From: an uncultured Desulfobulbus sp.
Lineage (GTDB): Bacteria; Desulfobacterota; Desulfobulbia; Desulfobulbales; Desulfobulbaceae
DNA length: 64,000 nucleotides
Assembly (NCBI RefSeq): GCF_963665445.1
Contig: NZ_OY762276.1
Coordinates: 4,148,601 to 4,212,600 of the forward strand
Direction of reading: 5' to 3'
In this document: positions 30,976-58,710 of the stretch, piece by piece
How positions within the stretch are numbered: position 1 is the stretch's first letter
Layout: every line of letters begins with the position of its first letter
Notes under the pieces: generated by a model
What the model saw: the letters and a program-made list of their open reading frames with translations, nothing else
The model's database searches: none
What the model was told of the DNA's origin: nothing
Program-made: the position numbers and the translations under genes

Positions 30976-31101
30976 TTATCTCTTGTCGCTGATCCTCTGT
31001 ATTTTCAGCCTATTTGGATTGCCGCAGGTTAGTTGGCGATCACCAGGCCTGGGATTGGCCGTGTACAGCTTCCGACATATCCGACATGGACGCTTTCGAT
31101 T
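30976..31101 (-). pseudogene. Zinc-ribbon protein remnant (transposon-associated type)
   Basis: The minus-strand frame reads NRKRPCRICRKLYTANPRPGD followed by RQLTCGNPNRLK. This closely matches the N-terminus of the zinc-ribbon protein encoded at 53353 in the second IS21-type transposon (KKRPCRICRKWFTPDPRVGD then RQKTCGNPECMKK). The second cysteine of the second pair is lost and the frame ends soon after, so it is a decayed third copy of this gene family. Nothing else of the transposon is clearly visible beside it. Confidence 0.6.
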
Positions 31102-31380
31102 CCGGAGTTGTTCGCTCACTGTCCATCCCTGGAGGTTCATCTCTCTCCAGGGATGGAAGGTAAAGAAAGTGATCACAGGTCAACAAAAAAAGCGGGGTTG
31201 GGAAAAATGAAGAGGCGGGTTGATCGGTAGTGACTTTCCATGGAGTACAAAATCGTCTCCGCTTGGGTACTTTGACGCCCCTGTTAGTTAAAGCCTGGGG
31301 AGATCTTTTTCCACGAAATCGGGAAAGAGTCTTGGCCGGGATTCTCCCGCTCGTTATTACCAGGAAATGGTAAGAAAGAC

Positions 31381-47263: not shown

Positions 47264-49210
47264 CTTATGTTTGCGGGTTGTAGGCACATTTTAGTGCAGT
47301 GCCGGAGAAAATATCACGCAATTTCAATGTGATAAAATTTTACGCGTGGTGAAAATCTCAAAATCTGTGGGCACACGCGAAGCGATATTTCAGTTGAAAT
47401 ACGCGAATTAGCACGCTAACGTGGTGGGCAGTCATGTATCTGCGAACCACGAAACGAAAAAACAAGAACGGCACCGTTACCGAGTATCTCCAGCTCGCCC
47501 ACAACGAGCGGAATCCGGAGACCAACTCCACCGTTGCCCGCATCATCCACAGCTTCGGACGCGCCGATCAGCTCGACCGTGAGGCCTTGGTGCGGCTCGC
47601 CCGATCTATAGCCAGAGTCTGCGGGGTAACCATTGTTGACCCCGCTGGTAGCGAGGAGGCTCAAGGTGGTGGACTGCCCGACGATCTTGAGATCCTGCGC
47701 ACAGTCGAACTCGGCACAGTGCTGGTCATCGAAACCCTTTGGGAGCGGTTGGGTATCGGCAAAGCGCTGCGGTCTCTGCTGGACAAAGGCAAGTATGCCG
47801 TTGCCTATGACCAGGCCCTGCTGGCCATGACCGCCAATCGTCTCTGCGCACCGGAATCCAAACTCGGTGTTTGGGATCGGTGGCTGGAGCAGGTCCATCT
47901 GCCCAAATGCCAAGGCCTGAAACTGCGGCAGATGTACGAGGCGATGGATTTCCTCCACAAGCATATCGACGCGGTAGAGGAAGCAGTCTTTTTTCAGACC
48001 GCCAACTTGTTCAACCTCTCGGTTGATCTGATCTTTTACGATACGACGACGGCTTCATTCTCCATTGATTACGAGGACGAGGAAGACGAAAACGACGGTC
48101 TGCGTCAGTACGGTCATTCCAAAGAGGGCACGTGGACGCCGCAAATCGTGGTCGCCCTGGCGGTTACCCGAGAGGGATTGCCGGTAAAAAGTTGGGTTTT
48201 TCCCGGTAACACGGCGGATGTATCCACGATCGAGCGTATCAGAAAGGACCTGCGAGGCTGGAACCTCGGTCGAGCGCTGTTCGTGGCCGACTCGGGTATG
48301 AACTCCTCCGCTAACCGAGAAGAACTTGCACGGGCCTGTGGCAAATACCTGCTGGCCACCCGCATGGCATCGGTGGCCGAAATCAAGAAAGAGGTCCTCT
48401 CGCAACCAGGTCGCTTCACCACCTTCACCGACAACCTGCAAGCCAAGGAAGTTGTTATCGGCGATGGCGAGCGACGGCGGCGATACATCCTCTGCTTCAA
48501 CCCAAAGGAAGCAGAGCGGCAACGAATACAACGGGAAGAGATCGTCGGCATGCTCGAAGAGCAGCTTGCCGGCCATAAAGACCGTGATGCTTCCGCCCAA
48601 TGGGCCGTCGAACTGCTGGCCTCAAAACGATACAAGCGATACCTGAGAACAACCGAGGCCGGAAAAATTCGCCTGGACCGAGCAGCCATCACCGAGGCCA
48701 AACGCTACGACGGCAAGTGGGTGCTGGAAACCAACGATGACACCATCAGCCTTGAAGATGCGGCCCTTGGCTACAAAGGGCTTTTGGTTATCGAACGGTG
48801 TTTCCGATCCCTCAAGCGCACCCAGATCAAAATGATGCCTATGTATCATTGGGCCGCACGGCGCATCGAAACGCATGTAAAAATCTGTGTTCTGGCGCTG
48901 CTCATAGAGCGCGTTGCGGAACGTGAGTGCGGGGAGCCCTGGTCCCGGATACGGCGCAACTTAGCCAAACTTCAAGCCACTGAGTTTCAAAAAGACCAGC
49001 ACAGTTTTTTTCAGATTAATTCAGCGCCGGAAGCCTGTCGTGAACTGATGAAAAAACTTGTAACTCCGCTACCGACCAAAATTTTTGGCATTAAGCCCCT
49101 TGAAAAATAAGTGCAATACCTGTGGGCACACGCCAAAATCGGCACCACCCGCCAACGCCCACCAGGCAAGGCTTTGCGGCTAGGCGTGTTCCACAACCCG
49201 TAAACCCAGG
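47264..49210 (+). mobile_element. IS1634-like insertion sequence, complete copy
   Basis: The outer ends CTTATGTTTGCGGG (47264) and CCTGGGTTTACGGG (complement, ending 49210) are imperfect inverted repeats. GCAGG is duplicated at 47259-47263 and 49211-49215. It has split the IS4 transposase frame between LCRLQA and NKQVYQLRG. A second, frameshifted copy begins at 62764, which confirms the end at CCTGGG. Confidence 0.85.
47434..49110 (+). CDS. IS1634 family transposase
   Basis: A 558-aa DDE transposase. The N-terminus MYLRTTKRKNKNGTVTEYLQLAHNER is the usual IS1634 opening. Catalytic blocks are LIFYDTTTASFSIDYED with the first Asp, ALFVADSGMNSSANRE with the second, and the C-terminal GLLVIERCFRSLKRTQIKMM with the Glu, then YHWAARRIETHVKICVLALL. 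Length is normal and no stop interrupts it, so this copy could be active and could be the source of the truncated copy at 62764. Confidence 0.92.
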   Translation: MYLRTTKRKNKNGTVTEYLQLAHNERNPETNSTVARIIHSFGRADQLDREALVRLARSIARVCGVTIVDPAGSEEAQGGGLPDDLEILRTVELGTVLVIETLWERLGIGKALRSLLDKGKYAVAYDQALLAMTANRLCAPESKLGVWDRWLEQVHLPKCQGLKLRQMYEAMDFLHKHIDAVEEAVFFQTANLFNLSVDLIFYDTTTASFSIDYEDEEDENDGLRQYGHSKEGTWTPQIVVALAVTREGLPVKSWVFPGNTADVSTIERIRKDLRGWNLGRALFVADSGMNSSANREELARACGKYLLATRMASVAEIKKEVLSQPGRFTTFTDNLQAKEVVIGDGERRRRYILCFNPKEAERQRIQREEIVGMLEEQLAGHKDRDASAQWAVELLASKRYKRYLRTTEAGKIRLDRAAITEAKRYDGKWVLETNDDTISLEDAALGYKGLLVIERCFRSLKRTQIKMMPMYHWAARRIETHVKICVLALLIERVAERECGEPWSRIRRNLAKLQATEFQKDQHSFFQINSAPEACRELMKKLVTPLPTKIFGIKPLEK

Positions 49211-49484
49211 GCAGGCCAACAAGCAGGTGTATCAACTTCGAGGCAAGAAAAAGCTTGAGCTGAATTTTTCCCGGATTGTTCGAGCCATGACCGATGCAGG
49301 AATTGAAAAAATTGAAGACAGAGTATTCCTTGACCGGGATCTGACATTAGAGGTTCGCCTCTTTGTTTATCTGTTACCTGAAAGCGTCTACCAGGAACGA
49401 ATGCGCAAGGCCAACCTGAATGCCCAAAAGAAAGGGCGGCAAATAGGGAAAGAATTCAAAGCCCGAGCAAGGCTCAATCTGTTC
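49211..49484 (+). pseudogene. IS4-family transposase, piece 2
   Basis: It continues piece 1 in frame: ANKQVYQLRGKKKLELNFSR, then GIEKIEDRVFLDRDLTLEVR, LFVYLLPESVYQERMRK and KARARLNLF. The last 8 bp ATCTGTTC (49477-49484) are duplicated at 52945 on the far side of the first IS21-type transposon. Joining across the transposon gives CTC-AAT-CTG-TTC-ATC-ACC, reading LNLFIT without a break. Confidence 0.9.
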
Positions 49485-49512
49485 TGGGGCCAGCGATCTA
49501 CTTTCCATCCAA

Positions 49513-49559
49513 AATCATCGGCGTAAAAGTCGACACAATCAGCGGTTGAAACCCAACCA
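49513..49559 (+). repeat. IstA-binding-type repeats, left end of transposon 1
   Basis: Two tandem units 24 bp apart, starting AATCATCGG (49513) and AATCAGCGG (49537), both followed by an A-rich core and a CA(G/A)CCA-like tail. They match the right-end units in inverted orientation. IS21 ends normally carry such multiple sites for the transposase. Confidence 0.75.
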
Positions 49560-49599
49560 CTGACCTCTTTTTTCTTCCTTTTCTTTTTTCCTCCTTAAA

Positions 49600-49617
49600 A
49601 CCTGATGTATATCAGGT
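49600..49617. promoter_or_regulatory. Palindrome upstream of the zinc-ribbon gene
   Basis: ACCTGAT (49600-49606) and ATCAGGT (49611-49617) are 7-bp inverted arms around GTAT, 84 bp upstream of the zinc-ribbon start. A candidate operator for a transposon-encoded regulator. Confidence 0.4.
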
Positions 49618-49700
49618 GGATTTTCTTCTATTTTTTCCTTTGTAGTTTCTTTGTATTCTTGCTGTTCGGCAAGCACGTCTCTCAACACATGGAGGTGCAA

Positions 49701-50138
49701 ATGAAACGGGCCACCTTTCGCTGCGCCTGTTGCAGGCGGATTCTGCCAAGAAACTCCAAAGTGAAAAATCAACGATACTGCGGTGATAAAGCGTGTCAGC
49801 GGGCGAGAAAACGCAAGTGGCAACGAGAAAAGCTGGAAGCGGATCCCGATCACCGGGCCAACAAACGAGAGAGTCAACGGGCCTGGCAAAATAAAAATCC
49901 TACTTATTGGCAGGAGTATCGCCGGAGAAATCCCGATTCCGGTGAACGTAACCGTCGGCTGCAGCGGTTACGAGACAGGACGAAACGTCAGGGAGCCGGG
50001 AACGATCTTGCAAAGAAGGACACGTCAACGCGGCTTTTCAACGATACATCAATAATTTATTACATTTCATCCAACATGGGGAATCTTGCAAAGATGGACG
50101 CGTTGCCCGTAAAAATCATCCCTATTACAGCAGGATAG
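49701..50138 (+). CDS. Transposon zinc-ribbon protein
   Basis: A 145-aa basic protein preceded by GGAGG 5 nt upstream of the ATG. Residues about 8-32 form a CxxC...CxxxxC zinc ribbon (FRCACCRRILPR, QRYCGDKACQRARKRKW). A long Arg/Lys-rich helix follows (residues about 33-95, with YWQEYRRRNPDSGERNRRLQ). Its tail contains LAKKD and LAKMD, which are encoded by copies of a 17-bp DNA repeat, so the tail may be shaped by DNA constraints. A homologue with the same cysteine spacing opens the second transposon at 53353, and a decayed one is at 30976. A DNA-binding role in transposition or its control is inference. Confidence 0.78.
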   Translation: MKRATFRCACCRRILPRNSKVKNQRYCGDKACQRARKRKWQREKLEADPDHRANKRESQRAWQNKNPTYWQEYRRRNPDSGERNRRLQRLRDRTKRQGAGNDLAKKDTSTRLFNDTSIIYYISSNMGNLAKMDALPVKIIPITAG

Positions 50139-50159
50139 CCACATCTTGCAAAGAAGGAC
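50005..50159 (+). repeat. Three copies of a 17-bp repeat
   Basis: ATCTTGCAAAGAAGGAC at 50005 and 50143 and ATCTTGCAAAGATGGAC at 50083 (one mismatch), 78 and 60 bp apart, all in the same orientation. The first two lie in the end of the zinc-ribbon gene and the third in the gap before the next gene. Flanks differ, so these look like protein-binding iterons. Confidence 0.8.
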
Positions 50160-50212
50160 TCGATGGCCTCAGGTCTTTCGATGCGCTACCGTGCTCAAGA
50201 AAGGAGGTCTTT

Positions 50213-50617
50213 ATGAGAAACGCACTGCTTCCCCAACGAGTACGAACGATCAACGGCAGCTTCGCTTATATCGAACACCGGTTCCTGCGCCACGGCTTCT
50301 GGGCCAGTCTCGCTCATCATGAACTGCTCCTCTATTTCTTCCTGGTCATGGTCGCCGATAGACAGGGGCTGTCGTTTTATGCCTACGACAAGATTTGCTC
50401 TCTGCTTGCCATCAGCCTGGATGAGTACATCCTGGCCCGCGACAGTCTTATCAGCAAAGACCTGCTGGCCTTTGACGGCACTTTTTTCCAGGTCCTGTCC
50501 CTGCCTGGGGAAGCAGTCCGTAACACCAAGTTGCTCCGGGCGCCTGAAGATATGCAGCGAAAAGATCCGGCAACCATTGACCGGCTTATCCGGCACAGTA
50601 TGGAGATGGGCAGATGA
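50213..50617 (+). CDS. Transposon accessory protein, unrecognised
   Basis: A 134-aa protein with AGGAGG 6 nt before its ATG. The sequence (FAYIEHRFLRHGFWASLAHHELLLYFFLVMVADRQGLSFYAYDKICSLL, split here as helices and turns) looks like a winged-helix DNA-binding or replication-type domain: a helix-rich first half, then DEYILARDSLISKDLLAFDG and FFQVLSLP. It ends with an ATGA overlap (50614-50617) with istA, so it is translationally coupled to the transposase. It occupies the place that the ParB-like gene has in transposon 2. I do not recognise a named family. Confidence 0.72.
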   Translation: MRNALLPQRVRTINGSFAYIEHRFLRHGFWASLAHHELLLYFFLVMVADRQGLSFYAYDKICSLLAISLDEYILARDSLISKDLLAFDGTFFQVLSLPGEAVRNTKLLRAPEDMQRKDPATIDRLIRHSMEMGR

Positions 50618-52086
50618 TCGGCAGGCGAACGGTTCTGGAAATTGTGGAGCTCAAGGAACAGGGATTTTCTATCCGCAGTATTGCCAGGCAGTTACAGTTG
50701 AATCGCGAGACCGTGGCAAAATACCTCGCCGACGATACGCCGAAGCGGACCAAGGTTAAAAAAGCGTCCAAGCTGGATCCCTACAGAGAGATGATTGCCG
50801 AGATGGTTGCACGCTGTCCGGACATAAAGGCGCCGGTGGTGCTGCAGAGAATCAGTAGTAAGGGGTTCAACGGTGAAATCACTATAGTGCGGGACCTGCT
50901 CAGACGATTGCGTGGTCAGCGATCTCAGCGCCAACCTTTTATCCGTTTTGAGTCGGAACCGGGCGAGCAAATCCAGATCGATTGGGGCCACTTTTCCGGC
51001 CTTTCCTATGGTGAGAGCAGCAGGAAACTCTATGCGCTTGCCGTGCTGGAAGGCTACAGCCGCATGCTCTACGTTTATTTTACCCACAGTCAGCAACAGG
51101 AGTCGCTGCATCAGGGATTGCTGGAAGCATTCAGGTATTTCGGCGGGACGCCGAAAGAAATCGTGGTCGACAACATGCTCACCGCAGTGACGGAGCGGGT
51201 GGGTTCGATCATCCGTTTCAATGACGCCTTTCTCGAATTTATCGGCAATTTCGGCATCCGGCCCCATGCCTGTAGCATCCGGGCGCCCCATGAAAAAGGC
51301 AAGGTGGAGAATGCCATCAAATACATCCGTACCAACTTCTGGCCCCTGCGGGAGATAACCAGCCTCGACCAGGCCCAGGAGCAGGTGCGGCACTGGCTGG
51401 ACACCGTGGCCAACGTCAGAAAGCACGCCACCACCGGCCAGCGCCCCATAGACCGGCTGCAGGGGTTGCAACCGCTGCCCGACCCACTACCGGACTGCCG
51501 GCAGGTCTGTGCGCTTCAGGTCCACAAGGACTTTGGAGTACGTTTCGATGCCAACGTCTATTCCGTACCGCCATGGGCCGTTGGTAAACAGGTTGTTCTC
51601 AAGGCTGACAACCAACGAGTCTCCATCTACCTCAAAGACAAAATGATCGCCTGCCATTGCCGGTGCTGGCAGCGGAGACAGCGCCTGGAGCTACCAGGCC
51701 ACCGGGAACAGGTACAGAAAATCAAGAAGAGAACGCTTCGCGATCGACAGGTGATGATTTTCCTCTCTCTGGGAGAAATCGCGCTGCGGTATCTCAACCA
51801 GCTGACCGATCTTCGGCTCCCGATCAAAAAGAATATCGTCGCCCTATTGCTGCTGGGGGATGAATACGGCGAGTCCGCGCTGCGCTATGGACTGGAAAAA
51901 TCATTGGAGAAAAAGGCTATCGGCGCCGACTATGTCCGCAACATCCTCTACCAGGAGATGACACCGGTCAATGATCACCCGCCGGTACGGCTTGACCAGG
52001 AGAACCTCAATGACATCAGGCTCACAACTCCGTCTTTGGCCGAGTACGACGCCATTGCCCTTAAAAGGAGATCCGGCAATGGTTAA
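50614..52086 (+). CDS. istA: IS21 family transposase IstA
   Basis: A 490-aa IS21-type DDE transposase. The N-terminal helix-turn-helix is IVELKEQGFSIRSIARQLQL. The catalytic triad lies in IQIDWGHFSGL (Asp), KEIVVDNMLTAV (Asp) and KGKVENAIKYIRTNFW (Glu), followed by a beta-barrel-like part DFGVRFDANVYSVPPWAVG. Length is typical. It is coupled to the 134-aa gene upstream (ATGA) and overlaps istB downstream. No frameshift; it appears functional. Confidence 0.95.
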   Translation: MIGRRTVLEIVELKEQGFSIRSIARQLQLNRETVAKYLADDTPKRTKVKKASKLDPYREMIAEMVARCPDIKAPVVLQRISSKGFNGEITIVRDLLRRLRGQRSQRQPFIRFESEPGEQIQIDWGHFSGLSYGESSRKLYALAVLEGYSRMLYVYFTHSQQQESLHQGLLEAFRYFGGTPKEIVVDNMLTAVTERVGSIIRFNDAFLEFIGNFGIRPHACSIRAPHEKGKVENAIKYIRTNFWPLREITSLDQAQEQVRHWLDTVANVRKHATTGQRPIDRLQGLQPLPDPLPDCRQVCALQVHKDFGVRFDANVYSVPPWAVGKQVVLKADNQRVSIYLKDKMIACHCRCWQRRQRLELPGHREQVQKIKKRTLRDRQVMIFLSLGEIALRYLNQLTDLRLPIKKNIVALLLLGDEYGESALRYGLEKSLEKKAIGADYVRNILYQEMTPVNDHPPVRLDQENLNDIRLTTPSLAEYDAIALKRRSGNG

Positions 52087-52807
52087 AGAGATCCAGGGGA
52101 AGTTCAAGGCATTGCGCCTTAAACACTGCGCGGAAAACATAGAATCCATCCTGGAGCAGGGGAAACAGAAAAACCTCTCTGCCCTGCAGGCGATGCATCG
52201 CCTGCTCGACCTGGAGCTCGAGCAGCGTCGTCGGGCAAGAATTATGCTGTGCTTCAAACAGTCGAAACTGCCGGAGCAGCCGACCATCGATCAGTTTGAT
52301 TTCAACTTTCATTCATCACGCAGTCAGCACAAAACAACCATTCTTGGGCTGCTGGATCTTGAATTTATCCGCCGTAAAATGGACGTCATCCTCATCGGCA
52401 ATCCTGGCGTGGGGAAAAGTCTCCTGGCAAAGACCATTGCCTATGGAGCCACCCAGGACGGCATCAAAACGCTTTTCACTTCGGCAATGGATATGATCAA
52501 CCAGTTGGTCGCCGCTCAGGACAATCGAACCCTTTTAAGCAAACTCAAAACATACCAAAGTCCGGATCTGCTTGTGATAGATGAGATCGGGTATCTACCG
52601 CTTGGCCAACAGGGCTCAAACTTATTTTTCCAAGTTATCAGTGCTCGGCATAAACAGAAGTCGACCATCATAACGACCAATTTGCCCTTTGCACAATGGG
52701 GAAACATCTTTGATAACACCACTGTTGCCACGGCGATTGCCGACCGACTCGTCTACAACTCGGAGATCCTTGTCATGGAGGGAAAAAGCTATCGAAAAAG
52801 GGCATAA
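52079..52807 (+). CDS. istB: IS21 family ATPase IstB
   Basis: A 242-aa AAA+ ATPase helper of IS21 transposition, similar to DnaC. Walker A is GNPGVGKSLLAK and Walker B is LLVIDEIGYLPL, with the sensor region STIITTNLPFAQW. The ATG at 52079 overlaps the istA stop and has AAAGGAG 8 nt upstream; the open frame extends back to 51971 inside istA. IstB oligomerises on target DNA and recruits IstA. Intact. Confidence 0.94.
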   Translation: MVKEIQGKFKALRLKHCAENIESILEQGKQKNLSALQAMHRLLDLELEQRRRARIMLCFKQSKLPEQPTIDQFDFNFHSSRSQHKTTILGLLDLEFIRRKMDVILIGNPGVGKSLLAKTIAYGATQDGIKTLFTSAMDMINQLVAAQDNRTLLSKLKTYQSPDLLVIDEIGYLPLGQQGSNLFFQVISARHKQKSTIITTNLPFAQWGNIFDNTTVATAIADRLVYNSEILVMEGKSYRKRA

Positions 52808-52893
52808 TCGGCAAAAACACAATCAGACAAGACAATCGAGGAGGTGCGTTTTCGCATTATTCCGAGACGCAGTGGTCCGCCTTACCCTCAAAG

Positions 52894-52941
52894 TGGCTGG
52901 TTTTTATCCGTTGATTTTGGCTGGTTTTCAAACCGCTGATT
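52894..52941 (-). repeat. IstA-binding-type repeats, right end of transposon 1
   Basis: Two units in inverted orientation to the left end, 52918-52941 and 52894-52916, each with AATCA(G/A)CGG on the minus strand followed by an A-rich core and CCAGCCA, 24 bp apart. Confidence 0.78.
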
Positions 52942-52944
52942 ACA

Positions 52945-53185
52945 ATCTGTTCATCACCTCCGCCTCAGAGGAGTTGCTTGATATTGAAAATGCGTGGAAG
53001 GCATACACGTTGCGCTGGCAAATCGAGCTTGTCTTTAAGATCTGGAAATCACTGTGGAAAATCGACAAGGTCAAAAAGGTGAAAAAGGAACGCCTTGAAT
53101 GCTATATTTACTCGAAATTATTCATTATTGTACTCAGCCTGAACATGTTATGGATAACGCATAACCTCATGCGCGGGCTGTACGG
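52945..53185 (+). pseudogene. IS4-family transposase, piece 3
   Basis: It continues piece 2 in frame after removal of transposon 1: NLFITSASEELLDIENAWKA, then YTLRWQIELVFKIWKSLWKI with the catalytic Glu, LECYIYSKLFIIVLSLNMLW and THNLMRGLYG. TGTACGG at its end (53179-53185) is nearly repeated as TGTATGG at 57373, past transposon 2. Confidence 0.9.
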
Positions 53186-53193
53186 TGTCACCG

Positions 53194-53281
53194 CCGATCT
53201 GAAACGAACCCACCCGCCGACGAAAAACTGACCCACCATACCGGTGTTTCCGTCTGAGAATCCACCGATTTAAAACCCCAC
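53194..53281 (+). repeat. End repeats of transposon 2, left
   Basis: Three units: CCGATCTGAAACGAACCCA (53194), CCGACGAAAAACTGACCCA (53217) and CCGATTTAAAACCCCAC (53265), spaced 23 and 48 bp. The same unit occurs inverted at the right end (57344-57364 and 57264-57282). Confidence 0.78.
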
Positions 53282-53352
53282 TTTTTGCTTTATTCTTCGT
53301 TTGTTCCTTTTCTTCTTAAGTATTGTTTCATCTCCAATGCCGGGAGGGAACA

Positions 53353-53778
53353 ATGCCACGTCTGAAAAAGCGTCCTTGTCGAATCTGTCGAAAATGGTTC
53401 ACGCCTGATCCAAGGGTCGGGGATCGGCAGAAAACCTGTGGTAATCCTGAGTGCATGAAAAAATGGCATGCCAAAAAATGCGCTGAATGGAATCGAAAGA
53501 ATCGCACCTGTGCTCAGGAGAATTATTTGTACGAAAAGCTGGCGCGTGCGACCAAACAAAGCTATGGCGGCAAAAAGGCATTGCCTGCAGACGCTCCGGT
53601 CAAACCTCCTCCCGCTTTTTTTCCCCAACTTCCCCGTTGTCTCATTCAAGAGGTGATGGGGGTGCAACAATTCGTAATCATAGAACATATCTCGCAACAA
53701 CTCTTCAAGGCCGTTCAAGAGGTGATAAGTATCCAACACGCTGAAAATACAAGAGCTCCATCACGACTTCTCCATTGA
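53353..53778 (+). CDS. Transposon zinc-ribbon protein
   Basis: A 141-aa protein with GGGAGG 5 nt before the ATG at 53353. It has the same N-terminal plan as the protein at 49701: RPCRICRKWFTPDPRVGDRQ, then KTCGNPECMKKWHAKKCAEW, that is CxxC and CxxxxC pairs, followed by a basic stretch. After about residue 75 the sequence differs completely (VKPPPAFFPQLPRC and a helical tail). The DPRVGDRQKTCGNPEC wording is also found in the remnant at 30976. It is probably a small DNA-binding protein of the transposon; its exact role is unknown. Confidence 0.78.
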   Translation: MPRLKKRPCRICRKWFTPDPRVGDRQKTCGNPECMKKWHAKKCAEWNRKNRTCAQENYLYEKLARATKQSYGGKKALPADAPVKPPPAFFPQLPRCLIQEVMGVQQFVIIEHISQQLFKAVQEVISIQHAENTRAPSRLLH

Positions 53779-53853
53779 TGCCGCTAAGAGGCGATGGCGT
53801 GTGCCGCAGATAATGAGCTATGAAGAGGCATCATTTTTTGCACAGGAGGCACC

Positions 53854-54777
53854 ATGTCAACCTCACCCATATCCACCGCTGATATTCTTGAACTTTCCCT
53901 GGATAAAATTGGAGAAAGATTCGCTCCCCTGCGGATCGTCAATCCGGCAGCCGACAGCGCCATGCTTCAGTCTGTGGAGCGCTACGGCCAGATCATGCCG
54001 GTGGTTGTCTGCGAGGCCCAGCAAAACGATTATCAACTGCTCGATGGCTTCAAACGGCTGCGAAGCGCCAGAAGGCTTGGCATGAAGTCACTCAAGGCCC
54101 AGGTAATGCGGCTTACCCTGCGTGCCGGCAAGGCGGCGCTGGTGCAGCTGAACTGGGTGGGGAAGTCAATCAGTAATATGGAAGAGGCGCTGGTGGTGCA
54201 TTCACTGTTCCATGAAGACAGCTTGAGCCAGGTGGAGATCGCCACGTTGCTGGGACGGCATAAAAGCTGGGTTTGTCGGCGAATATCCTTGATTGACCGA
54301 TTGTGCGATGAGGGGTTGGCCCAGATAAAGCTCGGTCTGCTGCCGATCAGCATGAGCCGGGAACTTATCAAGTTGCCACGTGGCAACCAGGAACTCCTCA
54401 TTCAAGCGATTGCCAACCATCATCTCAGTTGCCGTGATACCGGCAGGCTGGTTGAAGAACTACAGGGCCGGCCGGAATATGAACACAGGCCGATTCTGGA
54501 AAGGCCGTGGGAAATACTCCAGTATCAAGACCATTTGGATACGACGGCAAGCAGGCTTTTTTCACCGGCTGTTCGGAGTATCCATCACAAAATTCTGCTT
54601 ATGGAGCGGTACTGCCTGGCGGTTTCCTGCACCATGCAAACCACAGAGATCAAACAATTTGAGGAGAAAGAAGAGCTCTTTATACGCGCTTGCTGCGGGG
54701 AAGCCGTGCGAACCCTTGAACACACCGTCAAGGAGGTCGGCCGAGTTGCGGTGCCGGATGCAGAGGCCGGACAATGA
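53854..54777 (+). CDS. ParB/KorB-like protein carried by transposon 2
   Basis: A 307-aa protein with GGAGG 4 nt before the ATG. The N-terminal half is ParB-like: VERYGQIMPVVVCEAQQNDY and LLDGFKRLRSARRLGMKSLK. The usual GERRLRAA of the CTP-binding pocket becomes GFKRLRSA. The central LSQVEIATLLGRHKSWVCRRISLIDRL is a KorB/ParB helix-turn-helix, and the second half is helical. Its stop overlaps the start of istA (ATGA, 54774-54777), so the two are coupled. A ParB-like protein next to a transposase recalls site-specific DNA loading or target choice; that is inference. Whether it binds CTP cannot be told from sequence alone. Confidence 0.85.
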   Translation: MSTSPISTADILELSLDKIGERFAPLRIVNPAADSAMLQSVERYGQIMPVVVCEAQQNDYQLLDGFKRLRSARRLGMKSLKAQVMRLTLRAGKAALVQLNWVGKSISNMEEALVVHSLFHEDSLSQVEIATLLGRHKSWVCRRISLIDRLCDEGLAQIKLGLLPISMSRELIKLPRGNQELLIQAIANHHLSCRDTGRLVEELQGRPEYEHRPILERPWEILQYQDHLDTTASRLFSPAVRSIHHKILLMERYCLAVSCTMQTTEIKQFEEKEELFIRACCGEAVRTLEHTVKEVGRVAVPDAEAGQ

Positions 54778-56397
54778 CCGTCATCGTTCATAGCCGAGAA
54801 GAGTTGGAACGACTGCTGATAACCATGCACAGCGAAGGTTGGAGCATCCGTAAACTCGCGGGTTATTTTTCCATCAGCCGCAATACGGTACGGCGTATCC
54901 TGCGCAAACATGCCGCAGCCCGGGACACGGGTCATGGTGCCGTTTGCCGGCAAAAACAACAACCGACACTGCGCGAAAGCAAACTCGAGCCCTTTCTCGA
55001 CCGGATTACGGAGCTGCTCAAGGATTTCCCCAAGATAACCGGTCAACGCGTGTACGAAGAGATTACCGCCGCCGGTTACGACGGCGGCATAAGTATTTTG
55101 CGTGCTCGGTTACGCAGCCTGCGGCCGACACCGAAAAAGACGCCGGTGATCCGTTTTGAGACAGAGCCCGGTCTGCAGGGGCAAATGGACTGGAGCCCCT
55201 ATGCCATACCATTCCAGCGTCAAGGCAAGATCACGGTCAATTGTTTTTTCGTATATCCTTGGATTTTCCAGACGACAATATATCGATTTCACCCCACGCC
55301 GGGATCTCTTCACCCTGATCCGCCGTCACCTGGATAGTTTTTCCCACTTCAACGGCTCGCCTCGCCAGTGTCTGTATGACAACGAAAAGACCGTTGTTCT
55401 GCGCTGGGAGGCCGGCCGGCCGGTATTCAATCCCTCTTTTGCCTCGTTTATCACCCATTACCGGTGCAAGCCCATCGCCTGCTTTCCCAACCGACCGCAA
55501 ACAAAGGGCAAAATAGAAAGGCCCTTCCAGTATGTAGAAAACAATCTCCTCGGTGGCCGAAAGTTTCAGGACCTCGATGATCTGAAAGCATGTGCCCGCT
55601 GGTGGCTGCAAAACCGGTCGGACACGCATATCCATGACACGACGGGCAGGCCCCCGCTGGAGTTGTTTCTGGAAGAAGAGCAGGAGGCGCTGACCATGTT
55701 GCCACGGTGTCCCTATGATGCCTCCGAGGTGGCCTTACGTGTCTGCAATATTGAAGGATATCTCGAGTTCGAGACCAATCGCTATCCGATTCCTTATGAA
55801 TATGTGACCGATATCCTGACCGTAAAAGCCACGGAGCAGGAAATTTATGTCTACTCACCGGAGCTGACCCTGATCGTTCGCCACGAACGATTGCCGGCAG
55901 GAGCGGTGATTACCCTTGATGCAGCCGGTATCCACGGACCACGCGCCGTTCGTTACGGCCTGGAGCCGGTCCGAGACCAATTTCTTGCCTTGGGTGATGA
56001 TGCCGAACTTTTTTTACGGGGACTTACGGAGCAACAGCCCAAGAACAGCGGATTCCACGCCAGGGCCATACTGCGGCAAAAAGAGGCCTACCACTGCGAC
56101 GACATTCATCGTGCCATCAGTCACGCCTGTCGCTATCACGCCTACGACCACCGAGCGGTGGAGCGTATTCTCAAAATCAAGGCAAAACCGCGTACTCTGG
56201 AATCGTGTCGCAACGAACGGGCAGCGGAACATCTGCGCCAGGCCCTGCCGCCGATCAAACAGCGGTCGTTACAGGAGTACAGTGCACTTTTAGGAGACAA
56301 TAACCATGAAGCAGGGACAGATAACGGAGAGCATGCAGCGGATCAAAAGCAGCTTGAAAGCTCTCAAACTCGACACGATAGCAAGGATTCTCGATGA
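54774..56397 (+). pseudogene. istA: IS21 family transposase IstA with a single frameshift
   Basis: Two overlapping frames together make a complete IstA. The first (54774 to about 55244) has the helix-turn-helix EGWSIRKLAGYFSISRNTVR and GQMDWSPYAIPF with the first Asp. The second (about 55250 to 56397) has YILGFSRRQYIDFTPRRDLF, QCLYDNEKTVVL with the second Asp and TKGKIERPFQYVENNLL with the Glu. The break is in the T6 run at 55244-55249: one T fewer gives a continuous NCFSYILGFSRR. The move needed is +1, so a classic -1 slippage does not explain it. It is a dead gene, or a sequencing indel. Confidence 0.85.
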
Positions 56398-57109
56398 AGA
56401 ATTGGCCAGGTCGGCCCAATCGGCAACACCGCCGACCGAGTTACTGGAACGTCTCCTGACAGCCGAGACGGATGCCCTGATCCAACGGAGAATCGAACGT
56501 CGGATCAAGGAATCAAGGCTACCGGAACGAAAACTGCTGGCGGACTTTGATTTTGATTTCCAGAAAGGAATCGATAAGGCTCAAATCCTCGAGTTGGCTC
56601 AGCTTGACTTTATCCGCCGCAAACAGGGGGTAATTCTTGCCGGTAATTCCGGTACCGGCAAGAGTCACATCGCCAAGGCGCTCCTGCTGCTTGCCTGCAA
56701 GGAAACCTACCGCTGTCGCTATACCACGGCAAGCGACATGCTCCGGGATCTCTTTTCAGGACTGGCCGACGACACTCTCGCTCTCAAACTCAAGCGCTAT
56801 CTGACGCCTGACCTGCTGCTCATAGACGAAGTCGGCTTTGACCGCCTTGAGCAACAGGATCCGTGTAACGCCTGCCTCTTTCATAAAGTGATTGACGGAC
56901 GTTACTGCAAGAGTTCGACAATGCTGACCTCAAATATCGATTTCAAGGAACTGGGGGATTATCTGGGGGATCCTGTCATTACCACCGCGATCGTCGACAG
57001 GATGGTTCACCATTCCATTATCCTGAGCATCCAGGGTCCTTCCTGGCGTCTTCATCAATCACAACAATTAAACCATTGCAGTGACCGCCCCAAGAGTGAG
57101 GTGGAATAA
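56306..57109 (+). CDS. istB: IS21 family ATPase IstB
   Basis: A 267-aa AAA+ ATPase. Walker A is GNSGTGKSHIAKALLLLA and Walker B is LLLIDEVGFDRLEQQ. The N-terminal KALKLDTIARILDEELARSA is the usual IstB helix, and ADFDFDFQKGI matches the DFD motif. It overlaps the end of istA by 92 bp. The ATG has AGGAG upstream. It is about 25 residues longer than its counterpart in transposon 1, with an extra C-terminal tail (HCSDRPKSEVE). Intact. Confidence 0.93.
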   Translation: MKQGQITESMQRIKSSLKALKLDTIARILDEELARSAQSATPPTELLERLLTAETDALIQRRIERRIKESRLPERKLLADFDFDFQKGIDKAQILELAQLDFIRRKQGVILAGNSGTGKSHIAKALLLLACKETYRCRYTTASDMLRDLFSGLADDTLALKLKRYLTPDLLLIDEVGFDRLEQQDPCNACLFHKVIDGRYCKSSTMLTSNIDFKELGDYLGDPVITTAIVDRMVHHSIILSIQGPSWRLHQSQQLNHCSDRPKSEVE

Positions 57110-57149
57110 CCCTCACTGACTCTGCATTTCAGAAAGCCTCCTTTCCCAC

Positions 57150-57214
57150 CAACGCCCCATGGCGGGGACGCCTTTCGCCCTACGGGCTCCAGGCGTCCCC
57201 GCCATGGGGCGTTG
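57150..57214. repeat. 24-bp perfect inverted repeat (strong hairpin) near the right end
   Basis: 57150-57173 is perfectly complementary to 57191-57214 (24 bp, very GC-rich, containing CCATGGCGGGGACGCC). The 17-nt loop itself holds GCCC/GGGC (57177-57180 and 57184-57187). It is 40 bp after istB and about 160 bp before the transposon end. It could end transcription or block polymerase entry; no T run follows closely. Confidence 0.85.
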
Positions 57215-57263
57215 CAAACTCGTCTACTTTTTCATTTTTTCTTGTTGCGTTGAAGCTCCAGAA

Positions 57264-57364
57264 GGTGGGTCTGTTAATCGGTGCAAATGCGGCTCATATT
57301 TTCACAACACGCAACTTATGGGTGAGTCCGCTTTATTCACTCAAATGGGTTCATTTTAGATCGC
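57264..57364 (-). repeat. End repeats of transposon 2, right
   Basis: Units in inverted orientation relative to the left end: complement of GCGATCTAAAATGAACCCA (57344-57364, next to the tip) and complement of ACCGATTAACAGACCCACC (57264-57282). Confidence 0.7.
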
Positions 57365-57372
57365 TGGTGACA

Positions 57373-57614
57373 TGTATGGTAAAAATCTCAGTTTCTACAA
57401 AGCTTTAAAGACCTGGATAAGATCTCTTGGCCGGTTCAAAGAGGCATTTTTCACCGGAATAGAAGCTGTGACCAATTTGTTAAAAAAATTTCTCGAGCTG
57501 AGTTGCCGGAAACATTTGTTGGAGAAGAGAAAAAATGGAAACTATTCTCCGGAAATTGTTCAAGGCATTTTTATCTTGAGAATCGAAGGGGAGCCAATAC
57601 CATGTGCGGCATAA
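57373..57614 (+). pseudogene. IS4-family transposase, piece 4 (C-terminal)
   Basis: It continues piece 3 after removal of transposon 2: GKNLSFYKALKTWIRSLGRF, then GIEAVTNLLKKFLELSCRKH and LLEKRKNGNYSPEIVQGIFI, ending at the TAA at 57612-57614. The wording is characteristic of the IS4-type C-terminus. The apparent Met start (ATG at 57375) is a product of the insertion and has no ribosome site. Confidence 0.88.
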
Positions 57615-57647
57615 TCAATGCCGCCATGGCTTCGCCTGACGGCTATG

Positions 57648-57919
57648 TGGGGAAGGGCACCCTGCTTGATAGATCTTCTCGGGGCTTTGGCGGGATTGTG
57701 CCAATGAAACAAATTCAAAAATATGGTATGTAGAAAATGAGACTATAGAGAGGTTCGAGAACCAAAAAGTTTCACTATAGTTTCACTGGCAATAGTTTGA
57801 GAAACCGATGAACAATTATAGCAGATTGAAAATAAAGGAAAAATTGGTGAGTTTGGCAGGAGTAGCGAATAGTACTTCGAATCCGAGTGTCGGGGGTTCG
57901 AATCCCTCCGGGCGCACCA
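57648..57919 (+). repeat. 272-bp inverted repeat, right copy (attachment-site-like)
   Basis: Partner of 44224-44495 in opposite orientation. Its left border coincides exactly with the right tip of the IS4-family element (57647), so that element appears to have cut into a once longer repeat. It ends with the tRNA-Arg fragment. Positions 57920-58273 beyond it hold no supported gene. Confidence 0.9.
57874..57919 (+). pseudogene. tRNA-Arg(UCG) 3' fragment, right copy
   Basis: Same 46-bp fragment as at 44224-44269: anticodon loop ACTTCGAA, stem TCCGA, T arm with TTCGAAT, CGGGCGC, then ACCA, where the left copy has GCCA. The 5' half of the tRNA is absent. A weaker hairpin with AACCGC/GCGGTT and a T-rich tail follows within 55 bp. 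Confidence 0.75.
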
Positions 57920-58273
57920 ATAATAACCGCAAAATCAAGGAGTTAATGCTCATTGGTTCAGCGGTTTTCTTTTTTCCAAGTTTTATTCAAATTAAATTCA
58001 GTAATAACGGTAAGTTGTAATATTTCATGCCGATTTTCACCCTGCTATAATCAAGCAACATCGTCATCGATTTCTCTCTTATCTCGACAACCTCCTCGAG
58101 GATCAGTTCTCAAGGAAAACAGTTGCAATATAAGGCTGGCGATTTTGGAAATTTTTTAAGTTTATGGTTGGCAAGATTGATGTCCACATTTCCCGTGCTA
58201 TCTCAAGTTTTTTCCACTCCCTGAAAATTGAAGCGATCCATGGAGAGACCTTTCGCCACGCGTGAAGAAATGC

Positions 58274-58521
58274 GTCACAATTTGGTGGCTGAAAAAATGG
58301 TGCTCTGTATAAGCGATGCCTGAAACCGACATGCACGGCATTGATAGAGTTGTCTGCGATGAATCTCGCTATAAGCCGCATGGCCACATTTGGGACAAAC
58401 AAAGCCTTTAGGCCAGCGCATCTTAAAAAGCGCATCACGCGCATTGGCATTCAGATGAATATCGAGCAAGAAACTCAGGCAAATTCGAACCTTTCTGAAA
58501 CTGAATTTTGTTCTTCGGCAT
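58274..58521 (-). pseudogene. IS1595-family transposase remnant
   Basis: On the minus strand the ATG at 58521 starts MPKNKIQFQKG. After one or more frameshifts the sequence continues as ARDALFKMRWPKGFVCPKCG, HAAYSEIHRRQLYQCRACRF and QASLIQSTIFSATKL. The CPxC...CxxC zinc ribbon with the WP.GF.CP.C wording is the N-terminus of IS1595-type transposases. The catalytic part is missing, so the gene is dead. An inverted pair TGGTAGGACA (58569) / TGTCCTACCA (58584) lies just upstream. Confidence 0.8.
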
Positions 58522-58710
58522 GGCTAGCGCTCCTGGAAGAGTTGATCTTGAGCACACTATGCCAAAGTTGGTAGGACAAATAGTGTCCTACCAGTAGAAA
58601 TATTTTCAGCTGAGGTTGAGTGGTAATCATAAAACAGATTTTCCTTGAATCTTTCCAGGAAATGTTGCCTTCATCCCTGGACCAAATGGGGAGCCGTTTT
58701 TTTTATTTGT

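Follow-up and report, generated by a model that had tools for sequence, protein, structure and literature searches.

Two four-gene IS21 transposons in a Desulfobulbus genome

The window, a stretch of 64,000 nucleotides from an uncultured Desulfobulbus sp. (contig NZ_OY762276.1, positions 4,148,601 to 4,212,600), holds two IS21-type transposons on its plus strand, T1 (49485..52944, 3460 bp) and T2 (53186..57372, 4187 bp), and in both of them a gene for a small zinc-ribbon protein, called zn here and its product Zn, and a second accessory gene precede istA and istB. The boundaries were set by aligning copies from the genome, a single contig of 5,081,812 bases that was scanned for copies and sites, and the outer coordinates that the initial annotation had given, 49485 and 57372, turned out to be the start of T1 and the end of T2. 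There are three copies of T1, the two outside the window being 100% and 99.97% identical to the window copy, and four copies of T2, the three outside the window being 99.2-99.9% identical to it. Both elements terminate in TG...CA, which is common to the three T1 copies and reads TGTCACC...GGTGACA in T2. T1 is flanked by the target duplication ATCTGTTC (49477..49484, repeated at 52945..52952), and at its other copies the duplication is TGCGATGG at one and just 6 bp (TTACAT) at the third. T2 is flanked by TGTACGG (53179..53185) and, with one mismatch, TGTATGG (57373..57379), and its three other copies by GGTATAT, CATTCAGG and TTCTTTTG, so that the duplications are 7-8 bp long apart from the 6 bp at one T1 copy. 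Another locus, L022, has the DNA that flanks the two elements here, 49211-49484, 52943-53186 and 57373-57647, contiguous without T1 or T2 and thus preserves both empty sites. Near the ends of T1 a 24-nt subterminal repeat (49505..49528, plus strand) is 79% complementary to its inverted partner (52901..52924, minus strand). T1 and T2 therefore have the inverted terminal repeats and short target duplications of the IS21 family and are recently mobile. Because the target duplications and the empty site fix the ends outside them, zn and the accessory genes are inside both transposons, as they also are in the independent elements described below; the position outside the terminal repeats that would have spoken against the initial annotation does not apply to T1 and T2. 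The T1 repeats between zn and p134, which were considered as a possible transposon end that would leave zn outside T1, are ruled out as such by the three copies with identical ends.

In T1 the order on the plus strand is zn1 (49701..50138, 145 aa, subtype A), p134 (50213..50617, 134 aa), istA (50614..52086, 490 aa; transpos_IS21, E 4.2e-77) and istB (52079..52807, 242 aa; IS21_help_AAA, E 2.3e-71). In T2, also on the plus strand, it is zn2 (53353..53778, 141 aa, subtype B), a gene for a ParB/Noc-like protein (53854..54777, 307 aa), istA (54774..56397) and istB (56306..57109, 267 aa; IS21_help_AAA, E 6.7e-66). The initial annotation had described this order, the ATGA overlap of the accessory gene with the istA start (50614-50617 in T1 and 54774-54777 in T2) and the CxxC...CxxxxC motif of both zinc-ribbon proteins, and all of this was found. 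T1 IstA scored 259.6 bits against the NCBI IS21 transposase profile, above its cut-off of 160. The istA of T2 is frameshifted in the window copy into open reading frames (ORFs) of 187 and 413 aa, which match that profile in two pieces of 97 and 148.5 bits, each below the cut-off, and the other three copies read a 540-aa IstA. Both IstB proteins were above the cut-off of 200 bits of the helper ATPase profile (240.2 bits in T1 and 222.3 bits in T2). The genome has three identical copies of zn1 and one more at 79%, and four copies of zn2, one of which, in the T2 copy L023, encodes an altered C-terminus. A decayed zn piece in the window, which the initial annotation had noticed near 30976, is real and of the T2 type (31003..31104, minus strand; 68% identity over 34 aa, E 5.5e-10).

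The initial annotation had called the second gene of T2 ParB/KorB-like, and the ParB half of this label was upheld: ParB_N (28.5 bits, cut-off 26.3) and HTH_ParB (35.9 bits, cut-off 22.6) both match above cut-off and a solved ParB, 7bnr, was found at E 4.8e-11, whereas the KorB domain PF08535 reached 19.3 bits against a cut-off of 22.3. The protein was also below the cut-offs of the full-length ParB models TIGR00180 and TIGR04285, and on these domain matches it is assigned to the ParB/Noc type. The second gene of T1, p134, is predicted to encode a winged-helix protein. The T1 protein itself reached no family model above cut-off, its match to HTH_36 (PF13730) being 14.4 bits against 25, and HTH_36 was matched at E <= 1 by 21 of 24 homologues (best 4.7e-7). 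The AF2 model (mean predicted local distance difference test score, pLDDT, 82.9) has the order helix-strand-helix-helix-strand-strand, and in Foldseek winged-helix regulators surfaced, none of them at E <= 0.001. The idea that p134 and the ParB-like gene are alternative versions of one part was rejected as two loci, L066 and L067, carry both. In PADLOC, which covers defence genes, no match was obtained for the four accessory proteins of T1 and T2.

Several other features lie in or around the two elements. T1 and T2 are inserted 234 bp apart in one older gene (49122-49484, 52945-53185 and 57373-57647), which in our own reading is IS4-type transposase-like and of which L022 has the insert-free copy. 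Between the left end of T1 and zn1 there is a terminator-like hairpin on the plus strand (49600-49617) that could shield the operon from outside transcription; the T1 region has 6 terminator-like sites against 1.2 expected from shuffles. Within T2, 3' of istB, an inverted repeat (57150-57214; 31-nt arms, 90% complementary, 3-nt loop) is a possible terminator or structural end.

The Zn protein family

The cysteines C7, C10, C26 and C31 of Zn are invariant in 59 homologues. The AF2 model of Zn1 (mean pLDDT 84.5) has a zinc-binding N-terminus followed by four helices at residues 29-46, 48-64, 68-75 and 77-97, where pLDDT is >90, and the C-terminus, whose coding sequence contains the sites described below, is poorly defined; the protein is basic and helical with a well predicted N-terminal half. 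Among Pfam models zf-CGNR alone was matched, weakly and by 6 of 15 members (best E 0.0011), and in NCBIfam 1 of 52 members had a match (E 0.009). Neither zn1 nor zn2 had a match in PHROGs or PADLOC, and no PDB sequence was found at E <= 1. Among the Pfam, NCBIfam, PHROGs and PADLOC models and solved structures tested, Zn therefore had no useful match that would place it in a known zinc-ribbon family.

An array of direct repeats in the 3' end of zn

The 3' end of zn1 and the sequence just beyond contain three direct repeats on the plus strand: site 1, TTGCAAAGAAGGACACGT (50008..50025), and site 2, TTGCAAAGATGGACGCGT (50086..50103), are inside zn1, and site 3, TTGCAAAGAAGGACTCGA (50146..50163), is 3' of its stop codon. 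When the genome collection was scanned for zn, 117 relatives were obtained, of which the best 80 loci with 84 zn genes were kept. The consensus from 108 distinct sites with <= 2 mismatches is the 18-bp sequence TTGCAAAGATGGACGCGT, with flanks of about zero information; conservation within the 17 scanned bases is partly a product of the mismatch limit, of which the codon test given below is free. At <= 3 mismatches there were 150 matches in 874,052 bases, 142 of them on the coding strand near the 3' end of zn, compared to 2 matches when the motif was reversed and an average of 2.05 (5 at most) over 20 shuffles of it. There were 35 exact sites and 88 at <= 1 mismatch, and none for the 20 shuffled motifs. 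At least one site was present in 80 of the 80 loci and at least two in 43. Sites 2 and 3 of subtype A are spaced by 59-60 bp (eight loci) or 69-71 bp (six loci), which differ by about one DNA turn. This is no more than suggestive, as scores are alike for periods of 9.5 to 12.

In relatives the repeats are translated as AKMDA, and it was considered whether a peptide motif is being conserved. In 59 zn genes, mostly <85% identical, the synonymous codons of the repeats are frozen: Ala is GCA in 56/56 and 40/41 and GCG in 26/28 and 35/36 at the respective columns and Leu is CTT in 25/25, with z scores of -8.7 to -23.7 for the repeat columns compared to -5.9 to +1.5 for conserved N-terminal columns, where codons are mostly as expected. 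In the full zn set the counts were 52/52 for Leu CTT, 23/23 for Ile ATT and 91/93 for Ala GCA. Ten non-coding sites are located after stop codons, and in L137 and L178 sites are in shifted reading frames. A peptide motif is ruled out by these three observations, which also show that the sites are nucleic-acid signals. No RNA structure was found at the sites (mean z -0.07 over 119). Four serine-recombinase cassettes (L094, L114, L117 and L134) have a minus-strand match to the 18-bp site with 2-3 mismatches at similar positions close to where the RepB-like gene ends; the sequences there are homologous and the match may be fortuitous.

At the equivalent position, each of the other zn clades has repeats of its own. 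Subtype B (T2 and L137) has GTTCAAGAGGTG, and in zn2 two such sites beginning TTCAAGAGGTGAT are at 53645..53669 and 53714..53738, both on the plus strand inside the gene. Subtype C (for example L149, L174 and L175) has three copies of GCGTTACAAGAT about 60-69 bp apart, subtype D (L139 and L178-L180) three copies of GATACAAGA, the L145/L207 type four copies of GAGATACAAGCCGAG, and the L138 type has the less regular repeats TTTACAAGATG. TNCAAGA is common to most subtypes, and subtype A reads TTGCAAAGA. In the short or truncated zn genes of the kind found in L140, L141 and L148 no repeats were seen. Three genomes have two subtypes each, A with B in the genome of the window and in G010, and C with the L138 type in G161. 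IS21 elements occur with subtype A, B, C or D and RIT elements with A or B. Across the sequences compared, the site sequence thus follows the zn subtype rather than the host or the recombinase, and this correlation points to Zn, not to a host factor or the recombinase, as the binder.

zn precedes unrelated recombinases and replication initiators

Among 247 genomes of the phylum, a zn1 relative was found in 10 and a zn2 relative in 7, the genome of the window being counted both times. A downstream effector was defined as one within 3.5 kb of zn on the same strand, and among the 84 zn genes of the best 80 loci out of 117 it is a serine recombinase in 44, a figure that includes near-copies, IS21 in 19 (12 with p134, 4 with ParB, 2 with both and 1 with neither), TrfA in 4, RIT in 3 (2 with p134), and another tyrosine recombinase in 2, both with p134. 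No label was given to the remaining 12, of which 3 have ParB and some are at contig ends, and one, L084, is otherwise a serine locus. In the wider collection, zn relatives are found 5' of IS21, RIT trios, tyrosine-recombinase pairs, serine recombinase with ParB and RepB, TrfA, an ISNCY-like transposase, and a putative transposase with an AAA protein. The TrfA initiators downstream of zn were identified with PF07042 (E 1.8e-18). The 134-aa gene is absent from some RIT and all serine-recombinase loci. Of the four plasmid records with a zn relative, three have gene tables, two of which show serine cassettes and one IS21 with ParB. Six viral-collection contigs have a relative (4 serine, 1 TrfA and 1 without a label); in the phage collection no zn1 relative was found, and in viral_contigs no zn2 relative.

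The layout recurs with defined ends in other genomes, which bears out what the initial annotation expected. In L065 and L119, inverted repeats of 52 and 56 nt, respectively, enclose zn to istB, and L044 has matching contig ends. In the RIT elements L058, L060 and L125, which have three consecutive tyrosine-recombinase genes (all three L058 proteins were checked by profile), TTATGTTGCGAGTT-type repeats, read by eye, flank the block from zn to ritC. Two further kinds of element lie outside the 80-locus set. L197-L199, three copies that are >99% identical, represent an element of 4462 bp whose ends are inverted and which has duplications of 5-6 bp; besides zn it encodes a CHC2 zinc finger, proteins of 195 and 563 aa, the latter a putative transposase (weak profile support), and an AAA protein below cut-off. 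L207/L208 is a 1907-bp element, 99.8% identical across two genera, in which zn is joined by the gene for an ISNCY-like transposase that reaches 148.3 bits (cut-off 250). Two unrelated elements have a zinc-finger gene of the CHC2 (DnaG) type beside zn (L043:8667-9203 and L199:5766-6116). The serine loci L078-L136, with the order zn, serine recombinase, ParB and RepB-like gene, are 93-99% identical over at least 5 kb in several genera of Betaproteobacteria; the ends of this serine-recombinase cassette were looked for and could not be fixed.

In the zn-domain tree the seven effector labels need 11 changes, the minimum being 6, and its well-supported branches require at least two origins for RIT and three changes for IS21. 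The p134 tree (24 rows) has few forks with strong support, and its three RIT rows do not form a single clade (0/200 bootstrap trees; p = 0.009 in the approximately unbiased test). Since neither the zn nor the p134 genes of RIT elements are one clade, the cassette, as far as these trees can be read, has moved between machineries and was exchanged between IS21 and RIT elements.

When T1 IstA was used as the query, 25 places in 17 of the 247 genomes were found at E <= 1e-40. At 12 of them zn is upstream, and six of these 12 are copies of T1 or T2 in the genome of the window. At one more place p134 was found alone, together with a fragment of a zn tail close by, and at the other 12 neither zn nor p134 was found within about 1.5 kb upstream. 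Close relatives of T1 IstA (51-58% identity, in G010, G184, G047 and G122) have zn and p134 in 4/4. The listing of genes upstream of IstA homologues that the initial annotation proposed thus shows that zn and the accessory genes recur beyond the window, whereas 13 of the 25 places have no zn within the stretch examined. The special IS21 lineage that it had envisaged is not supported by the comparison, as the same zn family with its array is also 5' of RIT, serine-recombinase, ISNCY-like, putative transposase plus AAA, and TrfA genes. Because zn and the array precede unrelated machineries and many IS21 places are without zn in the stretch examined, the gene is not bound to IS21. A Cys-rich ORF (L156:2587-3018, minus strand; CAGC, CSYC and CSGGC) that the zn queries did not match precedes a more distantly related IS21 istA and is perhaps a further zinc-ribbon companion.

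Outside the two transposons, the sequence at 57850-57920 beside T2 resembles the 3' part of a tRNA gene, ending ...GGTTCGAATCCCTCCGGGCGCACCA; a tRNA gene as the target at 57.9 kb was rejected because ARAGORN gives no gene in 57000-58600. A minus-strand ORF with CPKCG...CRAC (58275-58469) is presumably the remnant of an IS1595-type transposase.

A probable role for Zn and its array

A probable explanation of these observations, and the one in which we have moderate confidence, is that Zn binds its own array as DNA and controls the downstream operon. The constant parts of what would be a portable control cassette are the zn gene and the array, which consists of one to four directly repeated sites, each about 18 bp long, in the 3' end of zn and just beyond. 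Zn, as a zinc-ribbon protein with long basic helices, would most likely bind this array as DNA, and because the array is transcribed and lies 3' of the zn start and 5' of the effectors, bound Zn would block or modulate transcription of the downstream recombinase operon. With such negative feedback, expression would surge on entry of the element into a naive cell, and mobility would afterwards be low and self-limited. The p134 winged helix and the ParB-like protein may be optional additional DNA-binding regulators. TrfA replication initiators do not recombine DNA. As Zn would have to serve DDE, tyrosine and serine recombinases and also a replication initiator, a role in the chemistry is unlikely and control of dose would be the common factor. 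Of the two functions that the initial annotation proposed, target selection or regulation, it is thus regulation that we favor.

Several observations weigh against this explanation. Thirty-seven of the 80 loci have one good site only, and in serine-recombinase loci the second copy has six mismatches in seven of the eight examined, none being seen in the eighth. The 80 loci were found by N-terminal patterns and ranked on full-length similarity, which favors zn genes that keep the repeats. Ile141, a C-terminal column outside the repeats, is also codon-biased (z -8.1). When the coding strand 5' of zn in T1 and T2 was scanned for consensus promoters, no sigma-70-like site was found, the scan giving no more than shuffles. 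Among solved structures Foldseek gave no relative of Zn at E <= 0.001, the nearest fold being YacG at E 2.3, and the zn-domain tree (87 rows, 91 columns) was made by a quick method and is poorly resolved. Finally, all sites have the same orientation, for which an RNA target would be an explanation too.

The last point is the basis of a different explanation, in which Zn binds the repeated motif on the mRNA of zn itself and controls the genes downstream at the level of elongation, decay or translation. All sites are indeed on the same strand within the zn transcript, but there is no structure around them and the spacing step in subtype A is near one DNA turn, which is no more than suggestive, and we therefore regard control through the mRNA as rather unlikely. 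Zn on its array might instead be a co-factor or enhancer of transposition that helps the recombination complex to assemble rather than a regulator of expression, in the way that the internal operator-enhancer of phage Mu helps to assemble its recombination complex. This would suit a cassette that is inside the ends of recently mobile elements, and small auxiliary genes are needed for recombination in GInts (ginD, PMC5385486) and SEs (srap, PMC10214605), according to the parts of those reports consulted. It would, however, require that Zn contacts DDE, tyrosine and serine recombinases alike, the TrfA loci have no recombinase assigned in the cassette, the sites are away from the element ends, and 12 of the 25 IstA-like places have neither zn nor p134 in the stretch examined; a co-factor role is unlikely.

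The other function foreseen by the initial annotation was target selection, in which Zn, p134 or ParB would choose the insertion place of IstA/IstB, as TnsD/TniQ do in Tn7-like elements. IstB is an AAA+ regulator like that of the Tn7 group, and all the accessory proteins look DNA-binding. When the genome was scanned with the zn1 sites, however, the zero-mismatch subtype-A sites were all (9/9) inside T1, and at two mismatches there were 9 matches versus 5 for the reversed pattern; as zero-mismatch sites are solely within T1, there is no evident host target for Zn1. The seven insertion sites of T1 and T2 share no visible sequence, and the machineries behind the cassette also include serine and tyrosine recombinases and TrfA. 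Target selection is thus very unlikely. Still less credit can be given to the view that the accessory genes are passive passengers, even though the altered Zn2 C-terminus in one T2 copy and the 13 of 25 IstA-like places without zn in the stretch examined would fit it, because the site codons are frozen, zn is fixed in the first operon position and the association with unrelated effectors is repeated. Returning to Zn as a DNA-binding regulator of the operon behind it, a wider form of this proposal, which we hold tentatively and with slightly more doubt than belief, is that of a mobility-control cassette, independent of chemistry and present in several phyla, in which Zn and its cognate array co-diversify into distinct specificities, and which is swapped whole among elements with DDE, tyrosine and serine recombinases and plasmid initiators so that elements in one cell would be controlled separately.

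What this means is that IS21, a model transposase system treated as a two-gene one, has a recurrent four-gene form whose extra genes are shared with unrelated recombination systems. The zn gene and its array are probably a common switch by which the mobility frequency of several kinds of mobile DNA is controlled. Should Zn indeed control these elements, many kinds of them would be regulated by a single family of small proteins, and the sites would be a simple sequence mark for finding the elements. Zn/site subtype pairs that coexist in one cell would be a natural orthogonal DNA-binding set, allowing a direct test of how specificity evolves, and the sites within coding sequence would be a clear case of regulatory DNA fixing synonymous codons.

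Comparison with known systems

In the IncP Kor regulon, helix-turn-helix and ParB/KorB-type proteins (KorA and KorB) repress trfA and other operons. The present cassette, in which recombinases have zn and genes for winged-helix and ParB-like proteins as neighbors and TrfA has zn, may work in a similar manner, but the ParB-like protein of T2 is below the KorB cut-off (19.3 versus 22.3 bits) and we know of no counterpart of Zn. An accessory gene shared by unrelated transposases has a parallel in TnpB, which is found in IS200/IS605 and IS607; TnpB, however, is a guided nuclease, whereas Zn is a small protein with an array of DNA sites and no recognised catalytic domain. A selector of the TnsD/TniQ type binds a defined target outside the element, and no zn1 site without mismatch was found outside T1 in this genome.

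The IS21 archetype, as described in the consulted part of PMC11208146, encodes two essential proteins, and its terminal inverted repeats have L1/L2 and R1/R2. T1 and T2 share with the family the genes istA and istB, short target duplications, and TG...CA ends that have inner repeats; they differ from it in that two added genes and a site array are found within the ends, 5' of istA. RIT elements have three consecutive tyrosine-recombinase genes (PMC3414803, PMC2864759), whereas in L058, L060 and L125 the trio is preceded by zn and in L058 and L060 also by p134, genes not mentioned in the consulted parts of those two papers. In GInts and SEs, too, a small non-catalytic protein accompanies recombinases (PMC5385486, PMC10214605), but ginD and srap are the fourth gene after the recombinases and the descriptions, as far as they were available, include no zinc-ribbon or array, so that zn is set apart from them by description only. 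By description only, and from part of the paper, the cassette may also be likened to the bimAB module of Cupriavidus plasmids, which has a recombinase and a putative repressor gene (PMC2864759). In the open-access literature no account of the cassette was found, subscription papers on RIT elements being outside that coverage. Transposon-borne regulators with operators are of an already known kind and shared accessory genes have precedent, and it is the zn family, the arrays inside the zn gene and their spread over unrelated machineries that appear to be new.

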